Source: a virus. Taken from it: DNA of 26,464 bases. The position numbers were made by a program, and so were the translations under genes. Below, piece by piece: positions 16,526 through 26,464 of the stretch. The notes under the pieces were generated by a model. It was not told the DNA's origin. It did no database searches and saw only the letters and a program-made list of their open reading frames with translations. Location: positions 1 to 26,464 of IMG/VR virus record IMGVR_UViG_3300027763_000208. One strand, 5' to 3'. Numbering within the stretch: position 1 is the first letter of the stretch; each line of letters begins with the position of its first letter.

Positions 16526-17373
16526 TAGTTAGCACCTTCCTGTGCGTATCGTTTAGCGAGTTCAGGGTTGCTGTCAAGCACATGCTCAACACCCTGCTCG
16601 ATAGTCTTTACTACGCCACTCTCGACAAGCGACTTAGCGAGGCTGCGAGCCTCATCCATCACCGAGTTGGTGCTGGAAGTTGATGAAGTGCCGAACTCCT
16701 TGAGCAAACCTGATTCTGACATCTGAGCGTCAGCTGCGAGAAGAACGCTCTCAACAGTCTTAGCTAGTTCAGCATCTACTGCGGTTAGTCGGCGGAGAGC
16801 TGGAGCAACCACTTCGTGGTCAATTCCTACGCTCTTGAAAGTTTCTTTCGACTTGGCGATAGCTTCGCCATCGAGTCTGATGTCACGCTCTTTGCGAAGT
16901 TCGGCTGACTGGGCTTTGAAAACCATAGCCATAACCTCTTGCTGTTCGGCTGGTAGAGCTTTGATGCTCTTGGCAACCTCATCAGGCATATCTTCCATAG
17001 CCATAGCTACTTCATCGGACATTTTGTAGCCCATCTCGACAGCTTCTTCGCCAGTTTGCATAGCCTGAATTTCTTCAAGCTTCATTGCGAGGTCAGCTGC
17101 TTGATTCTTAGCTGCTTCTAGAGCTGCTTCGAGTCCTGCGACCTTTTCCTCGTAACCATCTACTGCCTTGGATACTGCGAGGTCAATTTGCTCTTGTGTA
17201 GAGTTCAAACTATTCTCCTCAATTTTGCCCTTAGCGATTTGCGGTTGGGCTTCTGGAAGTGCTTCTTCGGCACTTTTCATTACTAGGAAACCATCGTGTA
17301 AGTGAGCAGCCCTGTCGACTCCAGAAGTTTCAAGCACTTCTAGATTTACAAGCTTTTTGGTTGGTCTACCCAT
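16525..17373 (-). CDS. Putative scaffolding protein
   Basis: This 282-aa protein is acidic and largely helical. The ATG at 17373 is chosen because AAAGGAAC lies upstream; an in-frame start 31 codons earlier would run into the promoter region. The N-terminus (LEVLETSGVDRAAHLHDGFLVMKS) is a short motif also seen at the front of phage head-morphogenesis proteins. The middle (residues about 60-115) is a coiled coil, and a Ser/Thr linker leads to a helical tail. Position just before cement and capsid genes fits a scaffold removed by the protease encoded upstream. Confidence 0.75.
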   Translation of the reverse strand: MGRPTKKLVNLEVLETSGVDRAAHLHDGFLVMKSAEEALPEAQPQIAKGKIEENSLNSTQEQIDLAVSKAVDGYEEKVAGLEAALEAAKNQAADLAMKLEEIQAMQTGEEAVEMGYKMSDEVAMAMEDMPDEVAKSIKALPAEQQEVMAMVFKAQSAELRKERDIRLDGEAIAKSKETFKSVGIDHEVVAPALRRLTAVDAELAKTVESVLLAADAQMSESGLLKEFGTSSTSSTNSVMDEARSLAKSLVESGVVKTIEQGVEHVLDSNPELAKRYAQEGAN

Positions 17374-17861: not shown

Positions 17862-18042
17862 AGTAAATCTTGACTTTGATTTTCTCACTAAAAAGTTTAT
17901 TGAAGAAAATACAGGTGAAAAGCTCACTGACGAACAGTGGGATTTGGTTGTAAAAGAAATTGAAGGTCGAGCAGATAACTGGCTAGATAATTTATTACCT
18001 GACCTTTACCAAGACATTGCAGAAGGAGTTTATGATGAATGA
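17851..18042 (+). CDS. 63-aa acidic protein, unknown function
   Basis: METKVNLDFDFLTKKFIEEN and the following TGEKLTDEQWDLVVKEIEGRADNWLDNLL form a strongly acidic, helical protein of a type common in small phage genes ('LT.EQW..V...I'). No function is known to me. AAAGGGAAAA precedes the ATG. It overlaps the upstream and downstream genes by a few nucleotides. Confidence 0.7.
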   Translation: METKVNLDFDFLTKKFIEENTGEKLTDEQWDLVVKEIEGRADNWLDNLLPDLYQDIAEGVYDE

Positions 18043-18235
18043 ATTTCAACAACTCAGTAACTTGGCTTATAAGGCTGGTTGGCATGAAGGAAGAATTGCT
18101 TTGAGAACAAAGATTCTAAAGCTAGTCAAAGAAAAGCCAAGTGGCGATGAAAATGATTACTACAAGCTTTATCTCGACATCATGGAAGCCATGATTGAAT
18201 CAGTTGCAGAAGAACCTCGTGAAATCAAAAGCTAG
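18035..18235 (+). CDS. ERxRI-family small protein, member 1
   Basis: This 66-aa protein uses the second of two adjacent ATGs (18035), which gives 6-nt spacing from AAGGAG (18023-18028). It has the shared core 'AGWHEGRIALRTKILKLVKEK', then a loop and a second helix YYKLYLDIMEAMIESV. The same helix-loop-helix layout recurs in the genes at 18361, 18542, 18754, 18971 and 19180. Function unknown; proteins with a '..ER.RI..LL' core are common among small actinophage early genes. Confidence 0.7.
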   Translation: MNEFQQLSNLAYKAGWHEGRIALRTKILKLVKEKPSGDENDYYKLYLDIMEAMIESVAEEPREIKS

Positions 18236-20133: not shown

Positions 20134-21597
20134 TTACCGTTTTGGGATAGGTTCAAACTTTGGTCGAGCAACTACCTTGGTCACTACCGATGCTTTTGAA
20201 GTCACCTTCTTGGTAGTTTTAGAAGGAGTAGTTGGTTTAGGGATGGCAGCCAACTCAGCATTAGCAGCGACCAAGCTGGCTTCTAGAGTGCTGACTTCGC
20301 TTGCTTTGGTTTCAATCGCAGCGTAAGCAGCTGAGTATCGACTCTTGCGACTAACCAAGATTGCATTTTTATCAGCATAGGTATCGCTATTGGATTGCCA
20401 GAGCGACTCAGCGTTAGATGCAGCGAGGTCAGCTGCTTCAAGAGCAGATTGCTTAGTTGTCAAGATTGATTGCTTTGATTCCAGATTAGACACTTTGGAA
20501 TCGTAAAGCTCCTGAGCAGCAAAATAGTTTTCAACTGCTAACTCTTCAGACGCAACCGCCGATACGAAAGCCTCAGTTTTCTGGTCGAGGATTACTTTCA
20601 AAGCTAGGTCTTTGGTGGTAGTTGCTTTAGCTTGCTGACTGAAGAAGGCAGCAGGAGCGATGCTCCACTGACCAGAGTTGATTGGTTGATAGTAAAGAGT
20701 GTTACAAGCTCCACCACCCCATTCATACATCCAAGCGTCAATCTCGTAAGACTGATTAGCAGTGAAGCTAAAAAGACCAGCGGTATTGCCACCGCAACCT
20801 TTGAGCGACCAGTCGTTGATAACTGGCTGACCAGCGATGCTCATGAAGAAACCATCGTCAGCAGCTGCATAGAAAAAGACTTGAGTGGTCGAAGGGTAGG
20901 TGATAAATCCTCGATAGTGAATCATTACATAGTCGCCACCGCAACCTTCAATGTTGCCATTGCCCCAGTTTCTATCAATGTGAGTTACAGTGATAGTTTT
21001 GCAGAAGGTATAAGCAGAATCAGAACGCTGAGGTGGATTGCCTTGTGAATTGATTCCTGTGTAGATGTCGGCTCGAAGACCAGCAGTAGCAGTTGTCGAA
21101 CCAGAAGTGATAGCACTATTGTCGTAGTTTGACTGAGCAGTAGCCATCTCTGACTGAGCGGTAGTCGATGCTTGAGCAGCATCTTCGTAGATGGCGTAAG
21201 TTGATTCCAGAGAGTCGATTGCTGAATTGGTTGCGATTACTGCTTCATTGAAAGCATCTTCAGCAATTGCTTGCTCAGCAAAAGCAACATCGTAGGTTGA
21301 ACTAGCATTTGAGTAAGCCAGAGCAGCAGCATCTAAAGCGTCTTCGGCAAGCGTGACTTCGCTTTGAGCTTCGGCAAGCGACTGAGCTTCGGCATTGGAA
21401 GAGTTTTTGAGAGCGTCAAGTTGAGCTTTAGCAGCATCAAGTTGAGTTTGAACTTGAGCAATCTTGGCTTTGGCAGCAGCCACTTTAGAGTTATAGTCTG
21501 AGGTGGTGCTTCCATAAGCAGGAGCAGTTGCAAATAGCATTGAAGCCATTGCAATAGCTGTAGCAACGAAAATTAGTTTAGCGATTTTTTTCTTCAT
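20134..21597 (-). CDS. Secreted coiled-coil protein with PA14 domain
   Basis: This 487-aa protein begins at the ATG at 21597 with a signal peptide (KKKIAKLIFVATAIAMASML, cleavage near APA-YG). An Ala/Lys/Glu-rich coiled coil (about 35-160) follows, then a PA14-type beta-barrel (about 172-318) with GLRADIYTG, 'YRGFITYP....VFFYAAADDGFFMSIAGQPVINDW', Cys pairs and W-rich strands. A second coiled coil (about 320-452) leads to a Pro/Thr/Lys-rich tail. PA14 domains often bind glycans. There is no clear ribosome site; the start lies 2 nt after a tRNA-like element. It may coat the infected cell or be a structural or moron protein acquired from a host. Confidence 0.75.
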   Translation of the reverse strand: MKKKIAKLIFVATAIAMASMLFATAPAYGSTTSDYNSKVAAAKAKIAQVQTQLDAAKAQLDALKNSSNAEAQSLAEAQSEVTLAEDALDAAALAYSNASSTYDVAFAEQAIAEDAFNEAVIATNSAIDSLESTYAIYEDAAQASTTAQSEMATAQSNYDNSAITSGSTTATAGLRADIYTGINSQGNPPQRSDSAYTFCKTITVTHIDRNWGNGNIEGCGGDYVMIHYRGFITYPSTTQVFFYAAADDGFFMSIAGQPVINDWSLKGCGGNTAGLFSFTANQSYEIDAWMYEWGGGACNTLYYQPINSGQWSIAPAAFFSQQAKATTTKDLALKVILDQKTEAFVSAVASEELAVENYFAAQELYDSKVSNLESKQSILTTKQSALEAADLAASNAESLWQSNSDTYADKNAILVSRKSRYSAAYAAIETKASEVSTLEASLVAANAELAAIPKPTTPSKTTKKVTSKASVVTKVVARPKFEPIPKR

Positions 21598-21598
21598 G

Positions 21599-21677
21599 TG
21601 GACTTGAAGGGAATCGAACCCTTGTGCATCGACTGCCATGTATGGTTTTGAGTCGATGACGAAGCCATAACAAGCCC
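21599..21677 (-). ncRNA. tRNA/tmRNA-like domain element
   Basis: On the minus strand: acceptor arm GGGCTTG (21677-21671) pairs with CAAGTCC (21606-21600, one G-U), discriminator A at 21599. T-arm AAGGG-TTCGATT-CCCTT (21623-21607) has a canonical T-loop. In place of a D-arm is TTATGGCTTCGT, close to the tmRNA consensus 'UGG.UUCGAC'. In place of an anticodon arm, CATCGACT/AGTCGATG (21658-21651 with 21634-21627) form an 8-bp stem with a 16-nt loop. This is the tRNA-like domain of tmRNA without the tag reading frame or pseudoknots, 79 nt in all. Not a normal tRNA; the function is unknown. Confidence 0.5.
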
Positions 21678-21744: not shown

Positions 21745-22878
21745 TTAGACGATTGAAAGGTGACTAAATGCTTTCTGGTTCGTCAGCATGACCAAAGCAC
21801 CAGTTCGAGCAACATCACCATGACGATGTTTCCAGTAAGTAGACTCTGATTCAAAAGTTGGAACACAGATAACTACACGCTCTTTTTTGGCTCGCATATG
21901 CATTTCGTGATTGTGACCATGTAGCAAAAAGTCGGCAGCTCCAGCTGATTGATTGTTGAGCGATTGACCAGCCCACCATTCAAAAGCTTTGCCTTTAGCC
22001 CACTGGTTGCCGTGAGCATGAGTAATAACCGAATTACCAACCTGTCGAGTCAAAGCCATTTCATCACGATTAGGAACATAGATTTGAACATGACCATAAG
22101 AAGCAGGGTTTAGTTGCAAAGCGTCTGACAGTGCAATCATGGCTTCGGTTGCATGACCATCATCTGCTCTTGTGGCTACAGGTAGTCGCTGAGCTTCATC
22201 GTGATTACCATTTACCACATCAATCTCTAATCTCTCGACTAGTGGAGCAAAAGCATCTACAGCGTAAAGAGCAAGTCTTCGGAAAAGTCGATATTGCTCG
22301 GTGATAGTTAGTTCAGTTCGCCACATAGATTTACCGCCCTGAGAAACATTTCCCTCACCACAGTCGCCAAGCCAAGCTTGGTGAACCATGCCTATAGGAT
22401 TTGTCTTACGAAGGACTTTTAGTTGCTTCACACTGTTATCAATAGAGGCTAAGACCCTATCTACAACTCCCTGAGTTCCATCTCCATCTACTTTGCCAAG
22501 TTGAAGGTCGCCAGCTAGCCAGTGAAAAACACTATCTCCTTCCGACTTACTTGGTGTGAATCTTCGAGATGAAATGCTCTTCAACACATCGTCAAGGTTA
22601 GCTGTTGAAGCAGGAGCAATGGCAAAACGATATGAGTGAAGCCACTCACCATCTTCACGCTGCTGCCATTTCGAGGTTTTGAGAGTTCCCACGATTCTGA
22701 CTTCTTTAGGGTCATAGCCAAACATTTCAAGAACTTCTTCAAAGCGAGGTGCTGAGGCTAAAGGCTCAGTTTGAATAAATCCCTTACTACCATCAAACTC
22801 TGTTGCTCGAATAAATGGTCGACTCGGTGAGGGTTCATCTATGGTTGGAATGGTGAGATGTTCTCTCAGGGTTGCCAT
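21745..22878 (-). CDS. Calcineurin-like metallophosphoesterase
   Basis: This 377-aa protein carries the motif series of metallophosphoesterases: GDLQLGK (123-129), LGDCGEGN (170-177), VNGNHDE (222-228), THAHG (286-290) and LLHGHNHE (318-325). The first motif reads D-x-Q rather than D-x-H. An N-terminal region of about 115 residues is not recognisable. Related proteins in actinophages lie beside HTH and nuclease genes and are thought to act as nucleases or phosphoesterases in DNA processing. ATG overlaps the HTH stop (TAATG). A 147-nt gap with the tRNA-like element follows. Confidence 0.85.
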   Translation of the reverse strand: MATLREHLTIPTIDEPSPSRPFIRATEFDGSKGFIQTEPLASAPRFEEVLEMFGYDPKEVRIVGTLKTSKWQQREDGEWLHSYRFAIAPASTANLDDVLKSISSRRFTPSKSEGDSVFHWLAGDLQLGKVDGDGTQGVVDRVLASIDNSVKQLKVLRKTNPIGMVHQAWLGDCGEGNVSQGGKSMWRTELTITEQYRLFRRLALYAVDAFAPLVERLEIDVVNGNHDEAQRLPVATRADDGHATEAMIALSDALQLNPASYGHVQIYVPNRDEMALTRQVGNSVITHAHGNQWAKGKAFEWWAGQSLNNQSAGAADFLLHGHNHEMHMRAKKERVVICVPTFESESTYWKHRHGDVARTGALVMLTNQKAFSHLSIV

Positions 22879-23532: not shown

Positions 23533-23800
23533 TTGCTAAATCTTCAGCATTTAGTTCTTCGATACCTCTAGGTTCACCGCATGCAGCATAAGTTGCTTCA
23601 ATCAAACCTCTATAAGCCTCTGGTTCAGACCACTCGTAAGGAATCTCAATCATTGAACCTTCAGGGGCTTGCTCTAGCTCAATTTTTAGTCTTCCAAAGG
23701 CATCGGCAGTTTCTGCTGTAATTGGCACACCGCTTAGGTCAATAGGCAAACCTTTTGCGGCAGCAAGTTGTAACTTTACTAAATCATCAGAGTTTATCAT
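23504..23800 (-). CDS. 98-aa acidic protein downstream of the zeta-type kinase
   Basis: MINSDDLVKLQLAAAKGLPI and the following DLSGVPITAETADAFGRLKIELEQAPEGSMIEIPYEWSE form an acidic protein with helical ends. I recognise no family. The ATG overlaps the kinase stop (TAATG), so the two are co-translated. Coupling to a zeta-type kinase makes a partner or antitoxin role thinkable, but it does not look like epsilon antitoxin and no fold evidence supports this. Confidence 0.65.
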   Translation of the reverse strand: MINSDDLVKLQLAAAKGLPIDLSGVPITAETADAFGRLKIELEQAPEGSMIEIPYEWSEPEAYRGLIEATYAACGEPRGIEELNAEDLANGKTPITFR

Positions 23801-24879
23801 TACTCATTACCTTTTTCTAAGAATGCATCGTAGCCAGCTTGGTCGGCAACTATAAAATTTCCACTTGCATCCGACTGTCCAATAATTTTAGCAGCACCTT
23901 TTACCGATGAGTCAATCAACATAATACCACCTTGAAACATTTTATTTTCTGCAGCAACTGCAAAGGTATTTGAAACATCTCGGTGAGTATCATAAACAAC
24001 TTCTTTAGGCACGAAACGACGCTCGCTAGATTTTAGGCTTCGTGCTTTTGAACGCTCCCATGCTTCCGCTGTGGGAATAGTAAAGTAAACTCCTCTAACT
24101 TTATAACCACCAATTTCAGCTTCAGTAATTTTCTTACCAAGCTTATCGGGGCTTGAATCGCCAGTGCCATCAAGGATTACATCTTGCTTATTTTTGATTG
24201 CTTGAGATTGAATTTGTTTTGCAACCATCGAAGATTCTTCGTGAGCAAAGGCGGCAGCATTATAAAAACCAGCATCATCACCTTTCCGCATTCGCTCAAA
24301 CTCAGGTAAATCACTTTTTACATTGTCAGCATTTACCACAACAGCCTGACGACTATCTGGGTCAGGAACACCAGGAGCGATGCCTGACCTTAGTGCAGTT
24401 GATTTTCCTGCTGCTGGACCACCACCAAGCATAAAGAAAGTTGGGTCTTCAGACACAGGAACACCTCTGGTAGTTTCTTCTACAATTTGACGATGAAGTT
24501 TTGCTCGCTCATCGCTAACTCGATAACCGCCACCTTCGGCAGGAACAAGATGATGCCAAAGCGAACTTTCAGGAGTCAAGGAATCTTTAGTTAACTCTCC
24601 ATCAACAAAGTTGCCTTGTTTGTCGATATTGACAACTTCAGGAATCCCTGCTTTATAACCGCCAGTTGCTTCAGGGCAGATTACTCGACCTTTACTATCA
24701 CGAGGCATTGCTCGCTTTACTCTACCTGCGTTCATATCTTTTTTACGCTGAATGGCAAGTTTGCGATATGCTTCAGACCTACCTTTGCCACCATGAAAAG
24801 TTTGGTCGTGCTGGTCACCTAAATGCTTTTGAAAAGCATCACTAGAAAAAGTTAGTGGTCTACTTGAAGGGATTAGCAT
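23800..24879 (-). CDS. Zeta-toxin-type P-loop kinase with phage head-type N-terminus
   Basis: This 359-aa protein begins at the ATG at 24879 (AGGA overlaps the upstream stop, TAGGAC); an in-frame start at 24918 would overlap the upstream gene. The N-terminus has HLGDQHDQTFHGG (19-31), a tag-like motif found near the ends of phage head and portal-region proteins. The Walker A GGGPAAGKST (152-161), NADNVKSD (183-190), HEESS (213-217) and VILDGTGD (234-241) define a zeta-toxin-like kinase. Zeta kinases phosphorylate UDP-sugars; the substrate here is unknown. Location in the capsid operon suggests packaging or a late role. Confidence 0.8.
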   Translation of the reverse strand: MLIPSSRPLTFSSDAFQKHLGDQHDQTFHGGKGRSEAYRKLAIQRKKDMNAGRVKRAMPRDSKGRVICPEATGGYKAGIPEVVNIDKQGNFVDGELTKDSLTPESSLWHHLVPAEGGGYRVSDERAKLHRQIVEETTRGVPVSEDPTFFMLGGGPAAGKSTALRSGIAPGVPDPDSRQAVVVNADNVKSDLPEFERMRKGDDAGFYNAAAFAHEESSMVAKQIQSQAIKNKQDVILDGTGDSSPDKLGKKITEAEIGGYKVRGVYFTIPTAEAWERSKARSLKSSERRFVPKEVVYDTHRDVSNTFAVAAENKMFQGGIMLIDSSVKGAAKIIGQSDASGNFIVADQAGYDAFLEKGNE

Positions 24880-24886
24880 AAAAGTC

Positions 24887-26464
24887 CTATTCCGATAGAG
24901 TTGAGAGTTTATGTGCAACTAAAGTATCTGTCGCTTCATCATTGCGATAAACTCTAATAACAGCAGCAGGTTCATCTTCAGTTCCAGAAACAGTCACGTC
25001 AGAATCAGGAACATTGTATTTTCCATCTCTGATGATTCGTTCAATCTTGCCTCTCGCAGTTCCACCTGAAGAGTTCCAAGAAACCATACTGCCTACTTTT
25101 GCTTCTTTATAAACACCTTCCATAACAGGTTCAGTTGAAAGATGTGATTCAAAACTTTGAACCATAGTTGCAGTTAGAGCAGTTATATCGATTTCGTAAG
25201 CATCAGCAACCGCATCACCAATAATAGCTCGCAACTGCCACTGCCACATTGAGTGTTGGTCTAGTCGCTCAGCAAGAAAATTAGCGATACCTTGCTCATT
25301 TAGAGAATCAGCTAAAGCAAACGACTTAGAAAGGCATCCTCGCAACTGCTCATTAGCAACATAAAGAATTTGGCTCATTAGTCCAGAATCATTTGTTTCA
25401 GGAATCACCATTGAAGCAATCGAACAGTTGAAGTCGGTTAGTCTGAAAGGAGCGTCGTAGTTTAGTTTGCGAATACTTTCAGCGATAGGGTCTATGCTTG
25501 AATCTGCATCTTCATAAATCTTGCCAAAAAGTTTATGAAACTGATAAAAATCTACACCAGTAACATTCCAATGGAATCCTTGAGCAATAAATCGGAAAGC
25601 TACTACCTCACCAATAAGTTCACAAAGCTCAGCAGCTAGACCCTCTTTGGTAGGTTCAGTAATGTATGCTGCATGCTTTGAGATTTCAATGTTGCCAAGG
25701 AAGTCTTTTGGCATGATGAAAGGTGCAGACTTCTTGATATGTTTGATGCGGTTGATTTCAGCTTCACGTTCAAGAGCAGCATTTTCGCTATCAAACTCGC
25801 CTAAATGCTTTTTGCCATCTTGCGAGAACAGATGCCATTTGCCATCGATTTCGTGAATCATTTTCGAGAAAGATACTCGACCAGTTGCATCATCGTCAGA
25901 CTTTTCAAGGTCAGCAGCGAAACGATTAGCAGTCCCACCAATGCTTAGACCTCGAATCTCACCTTGTTTGATAAGCTCCCATGCCCAAGGTTCCCAAATA
26001 ATACCTAGAAATGGTGTGCCAGCAGGAAATGTGTATTCGGTATCACCCTCGGGATGTTTCACTGGCACAGTTACTTCATAAGGCCATGTTGCACCTTCAA
26101 CCCACTGACCTGCAACGATGTCAGTATTGTGCTGAAGTCTGATGTCGCGGTCATCTTGGTTTAGATACTTCCAGAACGCTTGCTGAACTTCTTGGCGGTC
26201 ACTCCACTCGCCATGAGCATCAAGTGAATCAGGAACATACCAAGGTGAAAAGGTATAGCGTTCTTCTTCGTTGATTGCTTTCGTAATAGAGCTGAAAGTG
26301 GCAATACGAGGCTTTTTAGACCACTCGGTGCTATCTATATGAACCGAGTTTGAAGTCGGTGAATCTTTTAGAATAGAAAGTATTTGAACACCATCATCAT
26401 CAAGTTCGACATCTACTTTATCTTTATTGTCAAGAGAAAGGTCGTTCAAGGTAGCAGTCAGTTC
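24887..26464 (-). CDS. XkdF-type prohead protease / Dps-like / Tudor-like fusion (partial)
   Basis: The frame is open through the right edge, so the true start lies outside; the first in-window start codon is TTG 26449 (residue numbers from there, 520 aa). Three parts are visible. Residues about 60-180: XkdF-type serine protease with QHN (H107) and RGLSIGG (S169). A linker with 'WHLFSQDGKKHLGEFDSENAALERE' follows. Residues about 265-415: a Dps/ferritin-like helical bundle with H293 in GFHWNVTG, H305, D320 and E324, while the usual fifth acid is G309. Residues about 449-518: a Hva1-Tudor-like barrel (KVGSMVSWNSSGGTARGKI..., EDEPAAVIRVY). It would mature proheads, and the Dps part could bind DNA or iron. 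Confidence 0.85.
   Translation of the reverse strand, partial: ELTATLNDLSLDNKDKVDVELDDDGVQILSILKDSPTSNSVHIDSTEWSKKPRIATFSSITKAINEEERYTFSPWYVPDSLDAHGEWSDRQEVQQAFWKYLNQDDRDIRLQHNTDIVAGQWVEGATWPYEVTVPVKHPEGDTEYTFPAGTPFLGIIWEPWAWELIKQGEIRGLSIGGTANRFAADLEKSDDDATGRVSFSKMIHEIDGKWHLFSQDGKKHLGEFDSENAALEREAEINRIKHIKKSAPFIMPKDFLGNIEISKHAAYITEPTKEGLAAELCELIGEVVAFRFIAQGFHWNVTGVDFYQFHKLFGKIYEDADSSIDPIAESIRKLNYDAPFRLTDFNCSIASMVIPETNDSGLMSQILYVANEQLRGCLSKSFALADSLNEQGIANFLAERLDQHSMWQWQLRAIIGDAVADAYEIDITALTATMVQSFESHLSTEPVMEGVYKEAKVGSMVSWNSSGGTARGKIERIIRDGKYNVPDSDVTVSGTEDEPAAVIRVYRNDEATDTLVAHKLSTLSE

Follow-up and report, generated by a model that had tools for sequence, protein, structure and literature searches.

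Among the tmRNAs that have been described without a message, that of mycobacteriophage DS6A comes closest to the RNA considered here; it has been classed as 'TLD only' (Mao et al., 2009, quoted in PMC4131195 and PMC11915505). As far as the quoted part of that work goes, a TLD-only-like molecule strongly inhibits tmRNA in E. coli, irrespective of whether it can be charged, and perhaps does so via titration of SmpB (PMC4131195 on Mao et al., 2009). DS6A is the sole message-less phage tmRNA named in the text of PMC11915505, where the 2025 tmRNA database contains 9 'standard, no CDS' sequences in 97,179, and a search of open-licence papers has found none that describes a larger family of such RNAs in phages. 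In mitochondria, tmRNAs without a tag have been retained together with SmpB and are thought to assist with incomplete mRNAs (PMC11915505).

The window analysed here, i.e., the whole stretch of 26,464 nucleotides, encodes on its minus strand a message-less tmRNA of 79 nt (tRNA-like domain only; 21599–21677, with G1 at 21677 and A73 at 21599), which fits the definition of a TLD-only phage tmRNA in that it lies in a virus record and has a tRNA-like domain and no tag frame. It belongs to an already known, nearly single-example kind, and what is new is the commonness of this kind in phages. Both the DS6A RNA and the window RNA are phage-encoded, comprise little beyond the tRNA-like domain and have no tag frame; the DS6A kind differs in having been described from one phage, and it is likened to the window RNA by its published description. 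The mitochondrial message-less tmRNA (RF02544) has also retained the tRNA-like domain and lost the message, in a cell that contains SmpB, but it is usually permuted, two-piece and organellar, whereas the window RNA is one-piece and viral, and a hairpin that covaries occupies the message position. A mitochondrial tmRNA without message was reportedly described by Jacob et al. in 2004. The CDS-less plastid tmRNAs of Mallomonadaceae (∼65 bp) share the standard order, the missing message and the restriction to the tRNA-like domain, but are two plastid sequences from reduced organelle genomes (PMC11915505). Full-length phage tmRNA, as in phage Tomas (97147–97421), has the tRNA-like domain, G3:U70 and the D-loop analogue in common with the window RNA and differs by a message and pseudoknots, which bring it to 275 nt. 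Finally, tRNA-Ala is similar enough in acceptor and T-arm that cellular genes score 44–50 bits with our family model R2, but it possesses a D-stem and an anticodon arm, and members of the family reach 56.7–87 bits with ARAGORN silent on them.

The assignment of the window element is based on its match to the Rfam tmRNA model RF00023, its best-scoring clan member, with 51.9 bits (cut-off 47, E 6.2 × 10−18). The alignment spans the element end to end (model 1–374), and 304 internal model positions are reduced to 12 nt; the message part, ∼300 positions of the model, is absent. The minimum free energy of −25.3 kcal/mol (z = −3.0) belongs to the same fold as the predicted tmRNA-type one, and R2 scores 87 bits on the element, which is itself a training sequence of that model. 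All features lie on the minus strand. The acceptor stem pairs GGGCUUG (21671–21677, where 21675 is the G3 that takes part in the alanine identity pair) with CAAGUCC (21600–21606, U70 at 21602) in seven pairs, the sole G-U being G3:U70, as supported by sequence, Rfam and relatives. It is followed by the D-loop analogue UGGCUUCG (21660–21667), which aligns with the tmRNA consensus GGaUUCGAC and whose GG is present throughout the relatives, and by helix 2, in which 21651–21658 and 21627–21634 form 8 bp according to both the fold and covariation. Within its 16-nt loop, helix 2 bears an apical 3-bp hairpin, CCA-UACA-UGG (21636–21645), at the site of the message and pseudoknots in full tmRNA. The T-arm, AAGGG-UUCGAUU-CCCUU (21607–21623, 5 bp with the loop UUCGAUU), is evident from sequence and relatives, and the discriminator A73 is followed by an encoded C74 (21598–21599), the remaining CCA not being encoded (ACAU). 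Like a tmRNA, the element has a tRNA-like domain with G3:U70, A73 and a D-loop analogue and with no D-stem. Neither resume codon, tag frame nor stop has been found in the element, which offers a 16-nt loop only, and due to the absent message it is not classed as a functional tmRNA; pseudoknots are missing too, as there is no room for them, and the 3-bp hairpin stands instead. A tRNA has been rejected, as cloverleaf and anticodon arm are lacking, the fold has no D-stem, and ARAGORN called neither tRNA nor tmRNA over the window; a chance fold is ruled out by the Rfam E-value of 6 × 10−18 and by covariation.

An earlier note, made from the sequence alone, had described the element as the tRNA-like domain of tmRNA without message, and the RF00023 match, obtained in the tmRNA-model search it had suggested, and the covariation bear this out. 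The 7-bp acceptor with one G-U, the T-arm and D-analogue in tmRNA order, and the 8-bp helix with its 16-nt loop are all present as it had them; that the G-U is G3:U70 had not been listed, and the inner CCA/UGG hairpin (21645–21636) had been overlooked. It was also correct that anticodon arm and D-stem are missing, but this is expected, because a tmRNA-type domain never has them. Directly 5′ of G1, we have further observed an imperfect short hairpin (CUAGACC-AAAA-GGUUCUAG, 21695–21678, minus strand), and hairpins seem present at this place in the relatives L081 and L067 too; it may serve RNase P as an element of the 5′ leader.

Relatives have been collected along two routes. The RNA-independent route started from homologues of the upstream phosphoesterase and gave 29 virus loci, eight of which carry the same kind of RNA (L080, L081, L082, L083, L091, L092, L095, L107); none of the eight has a message, all have G3:U70 in the acceptor, and helix 2 pairs in each despite its different sequence. 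The second route ran D-loop and T-arm patterns against IMG/VR plus one genome per species, with a filter for acceptor and T-arm pairing; the patterns fix the letters of the D-loop and T-loop, in some scans also a 3′ UCCAC, and leave G3 and helix 2 free, and the final filter for the resulting list of 83 demanded GGG and UCCAC. After removal of ARAGORN tRNAs and doubtful cases, at least 83 distinct message-less sequences at at least 130 loci (some contigs counted twice) have been obtained, nearly all from virus contigs and with a variety of genes around them, and relatives too score above the Rfam tmRNA cut-off. In the collection with one genome per species, five of 40 pattern matches are real (L169, L175, L178, L186, L190); each of the five sits on a contig of a metagenome-assembled genome, and these contigs may be viral. 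The other 35 are tRNAs or chance. Message-less tmRNA is widespread in phages, and dozens of different phages carry one.

The structure has been examined in two alignments, A4 with 24 sequences and A6 with 89 rows (the basis of R2); both were fitted to the structure and hence lean towards it. In A4, 93.6% of the cells are paired, double changes occur in 19/25 pairs, and covariation amounts to 0.724 as compared to 0.149 in shuffled alignments; one of its rows, L028, is called tRNA-Pro by ARAGORN and has been left out of later counts. In A6, 92.9% of the cells are paired, compensatory double changes are found in 20/25 pairs, and the covariation of 0.681 compares with 0.131 in shuffles and 0.064–0.103 with the partners slid. 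All ten family-model pairs of helix 2 have changed on both sides (A6), with the further pairs G18-C54 and U19-A53 being weaker; the apical hairpin covaries in 3/3 pairs and is 96% paired (A6), and the T-arm is 99.8% paired in relatives, with two strongly covarying pairs (A6). An independent MAFFT alignment (A5) evaluated with RNAalifold has recovered both helix 2 and the T-arm, 9/11 of whose pairs show double changes; the acceptor was missed there because MAFFT misaligned the 5′ end. The compensatory changes in related phages that the earlier note had proposed as a test are thus strongly present in A4 and A6.

The pair G3:U70 is an identity element of alanyl-tRNA synthetase (AlaRS). In A6, G1:C72, G2:C71 and G3:U70 are invariant (89/89), and the alanine signature of G3:U70 with A73 is found in every member, including the window and the eight loci from the protein search; as the final filter required GGG and UCCAC, unbiased support for G3:U70 comes only from the sets filtered by pairing alone. 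Likewise, A73C74 is present in 86/86 relatives from scans that required AC, and also in all rows of A4, where this was not required. From these substitution patterns we conclude that the structure of the family is under selection and is neither decay nor accident, which argues against the 'degenerate tmRNA' once suggested for the window element, as selection acts on stems, G3:U70 and the extra hairpin across 83 distinct sequences.

Regarding specificity, R2 gives 56.7–87 bits on 82 loci or rows of the family, and over 396 actinobacterial genomes it has found no member, the best matches there reaching 44–50 bits and all 12 fetched top matches being tRNA-Ala. Family matches below ∼55 bits are therefore not trustworthy alone, and L026, L194, L068, L043, the Quenya variant, Tomas/Naboo (46.9 bits) and Jay2Jay (54.5 bits) are treated as provisional. 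The match in phage Whirlwind has turned out to be a tRNA, those in Nanosmite and GMA2 full-length tmRNAs. Typical members occur in the Streptomyces phages pSt2308 (33356–33436), LuckySocke (17977–18057) and GiJojo (17025–17105), with 57–61 bits in Rfam and 70–74 bits with R2; none of these carries an RNA annotation, and in GiJojo a hypothetical protein has been drawn over the RNA. The provisional variant of Microbacterium phage Quenya (MT889365, 41347–41438), shared by L043 (4289–4381), adjoins a tRNA-Gln and measures 92–93 nt; a longer hairpin replaces the message, and the score is below the safe level.

The family RNA is a free-standing gene, with autonomy shown for part of the family. Elements fall into 24 groups without a common neighbouring protein family within 4.5 kb, and the strands of upstream and downstream genes occur in all combinations (+/+ 30, +/− 19, −/+ 17, −/− 14). 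Several members are embedded in tRNA arrays of phages (L120, L138, L143, L011), the one of L138 beginning 3 nt after a tRNA-Val. Sigma-70-like −10 boxes pile up 11–15 nt before G1, with 17 in this 5-nt bin and ∼1 expected; any −10-like box is found in 26/81 upstream regions compared to 13.4 expected, and a −35/−10 pair placed for a start at or near G1 in 14/83 compared to 2.2 in shuffles, where the 14 include close relatives and perhaps amount to about eight independent cases. In the window itself, no promoter or terminator for the element above chance has been found, and the RNA may depend on read-through together with RNase P.

For function, we regard it as on balance probable that this is a trans-acting phage RNA, an alanine-charged decoy which vies with the tmRNA of the host for SmpB and for stalled ribosomes. 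The host's RNase P and enzymes of 3′ processing would mature the RNA, the CCA-adding enzyme would finish its 3′ end, host AlaRS would charge it with alanine, and EF-Tu and host SmpB would bind it. Having no message, it should be unable to tag or release a stalled ribosome, and we therefore propose a decoy: it would tie up SmpB and, when charged, would enter stalled ribosomes instead of tmRNA, with less trans-translation during infection as the outcome. The phage might benefit in that its own incomplete proteins are spared tagging, or in that a rescue or stress route of the host is disabled. The presence of a D-loop analogue and of helix 2 leads us to predict SmpB binding, and the invariance of G3:U70 suggests a natural role for charging. 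Neither a full-length tmRNA nor SmpB has been found in 39 phage records, so that SmpB, AlaRS and EF-Tu would all have to come from the host. The Streptomyces phages Tomas, Jay2Jay and Evy have a diverged member in a tRNA array and a full tmRNA ∼10 kb away (diverged members at 88030–88110 in Tomas, NC_070781, and 87505–87584 in Jay2Jay, KM652554; D-loop analogue differing, ACGGGUGU), which is awkward for a plain anti-tmRNA role.

Such phages would be compatible with an account that we consider unlikely, in which the alanyl-RNA enters the stalled ribosome along with SmpB and EF-Tu and receives the nascent chain, and the resulting complex dissolves or is hydrolysed untagged. It is analogous to a proposal for mitochondrial tmRNAs that have lost the message, which have been retained along with SmpB (PMC11915505), and the invariant G3:U70 and A73 imply that charging is important. 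As plain SmpB titration needs no charging, the invariance of G3:U70 is better accommodated by a charged decoy or by such message-less rescue. Rescue is opposed by the sole known experiment, as quoted in PMC4131195, which gave inhibition of tmRNA, and by the lack of a visible stop codon or release step in the RNA; since the inhibition was seen whether or not the molecule was chargeable (Mao et al., 2009, via PMC4131195), the quoted experiment leaves the invariance of G3:U70 unexplained. It is a tentative and rather doubtful generalization that many phage lineages possess a dedicated message-less tmRNA which is charged with alanine and by which SmpB-dependent ribosome rescue is hijacked or poisoned in the course of infection, and that the conserved hairpin replacing the message has its own function. 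If true, this would be a viral counterpart to message-less mitochondrial tmRNA. With at least 83 distinct sequences from one pattern family, a curiosity has become a common phage RNA gene, and it is now testable whether phages target trans-translation and whether a message-less alanyl-RNA inhibits or replaces it. Unannotated members exist in cultured phages that have laboratory hosts, e.g., LuckySocke and Jay2Jay on Streptomyces lividans.

Non-proteinogenic tRNAs exist, and an anticodon-less Ala-RNA could also donate alanine to a peptide ligase, a Fem-like or lipid transferase, or another use outside trans-translation. We find this distinctly improbable: the universal G3:U70 and A73 and the missing anticodon would suit a non-decoding molecule, but the elements have no common adjoining enzyme gene, and the tmRNA-type D-loop analogue and helix 2, absent in tRNA-Ala, would be superfluous.

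The surroundings of the window element bear on a further reading, very improbable to us, in which a tRNA-like leader is cut after A73 and leaves a near-leaderless mRNA (C-AUG) for a secreted protein. As the earlier note had stated, the element ends just before the start of this downstream neighbour (20134–21597, minus strand; signal peptide, weak PA14 similarity with E 9.9 × 10−4, under cut-off): its start codon is at 21597–21595, C74 is the single base between A73 and AUG, and no Shine-Dalgarno site is visible. Cis action is opposed by the variety of the neighbours, which from member to member are of different kinds and on different strands; by the closest relatives, L080 and L081, where the gene downstream of the RNA is unrelated and lies on the opposite strand; and by L145 and L146, whose secreted-protein homologues have no RNA upstream. 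The adjacency looks incidental, and the 'cis-acting leader' of the earlier note does not hold. The upstream neighbour is a metallophosphoesterase (21745–22878, minus strand; Metallophos_2 E 1.1 × 10−4, under the curated cut-off) with phage homologues, annotated MRE11-like in actinophages. It is the nearest upstream gene of 10 elements, with the gene order kept in one subgroup of relatives only, and in cultured actinophages with the phosphoesterase (Jace, Schmidt, Goib, prophiGD27-1) the RNA has not been found.

That the element is an attP remnant, i.e., a host ssrA 3′ end copied for integration, is scarcely credible for the window and refuted as a general account, since the 5′ half exists and covaries, no copy of the window's 3′ 25-mer occurs in 396 actinobacterial genomes (its own host may lie outside this set), and 32/39 phage records have no integrase match, many being fragments in which such absence is weak per record. 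In its favour, ssrA often serves as an integration site, and among the seven records with a tyrosine or serine integrase match, G007 (L095) and G010 (L111) are the only ones where it is near the element, a tyrosine integrase at 0.8–1.4 kb; within the 26-kb fragment of the window none has been found. Cluster K mycobacteriophages indeed carry an attP ∼90 nt before the integrase, but it comprises the ssrA 3′ half only and scores just 15–19 bits with R2; Niklas, Milly and Validus, with this 3′ segment alone beside an integrase, are such attP and not members. Taken together, the identification in the earlier note as a message-less tRNA-like domain holds, and its explanations by degeneration, a cis leader or integration do not.

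Two further proteins of the window, both on the minus strand, deserve mention: 23800–24918 encodes a zeta-toxin-type kinase domain (Pfam E 1.5 × 10−24) in a phage structural or packaging neighbourhood, and 24887–26449 unites an XkdF-type phage protease with ferritin/Dps-like and Hva1 TUDOR domains in one protein, an unusual fusion. In Gordonia phage GMA2 (L320), 854–910 matches the Rfam Pistol ribozyme with 56.8 bits (cut-off 34.5) 3′ of a tRNA-Trp, in an RNA array that also includes the full tmRNA and a sub-threshold YrlA-like match.
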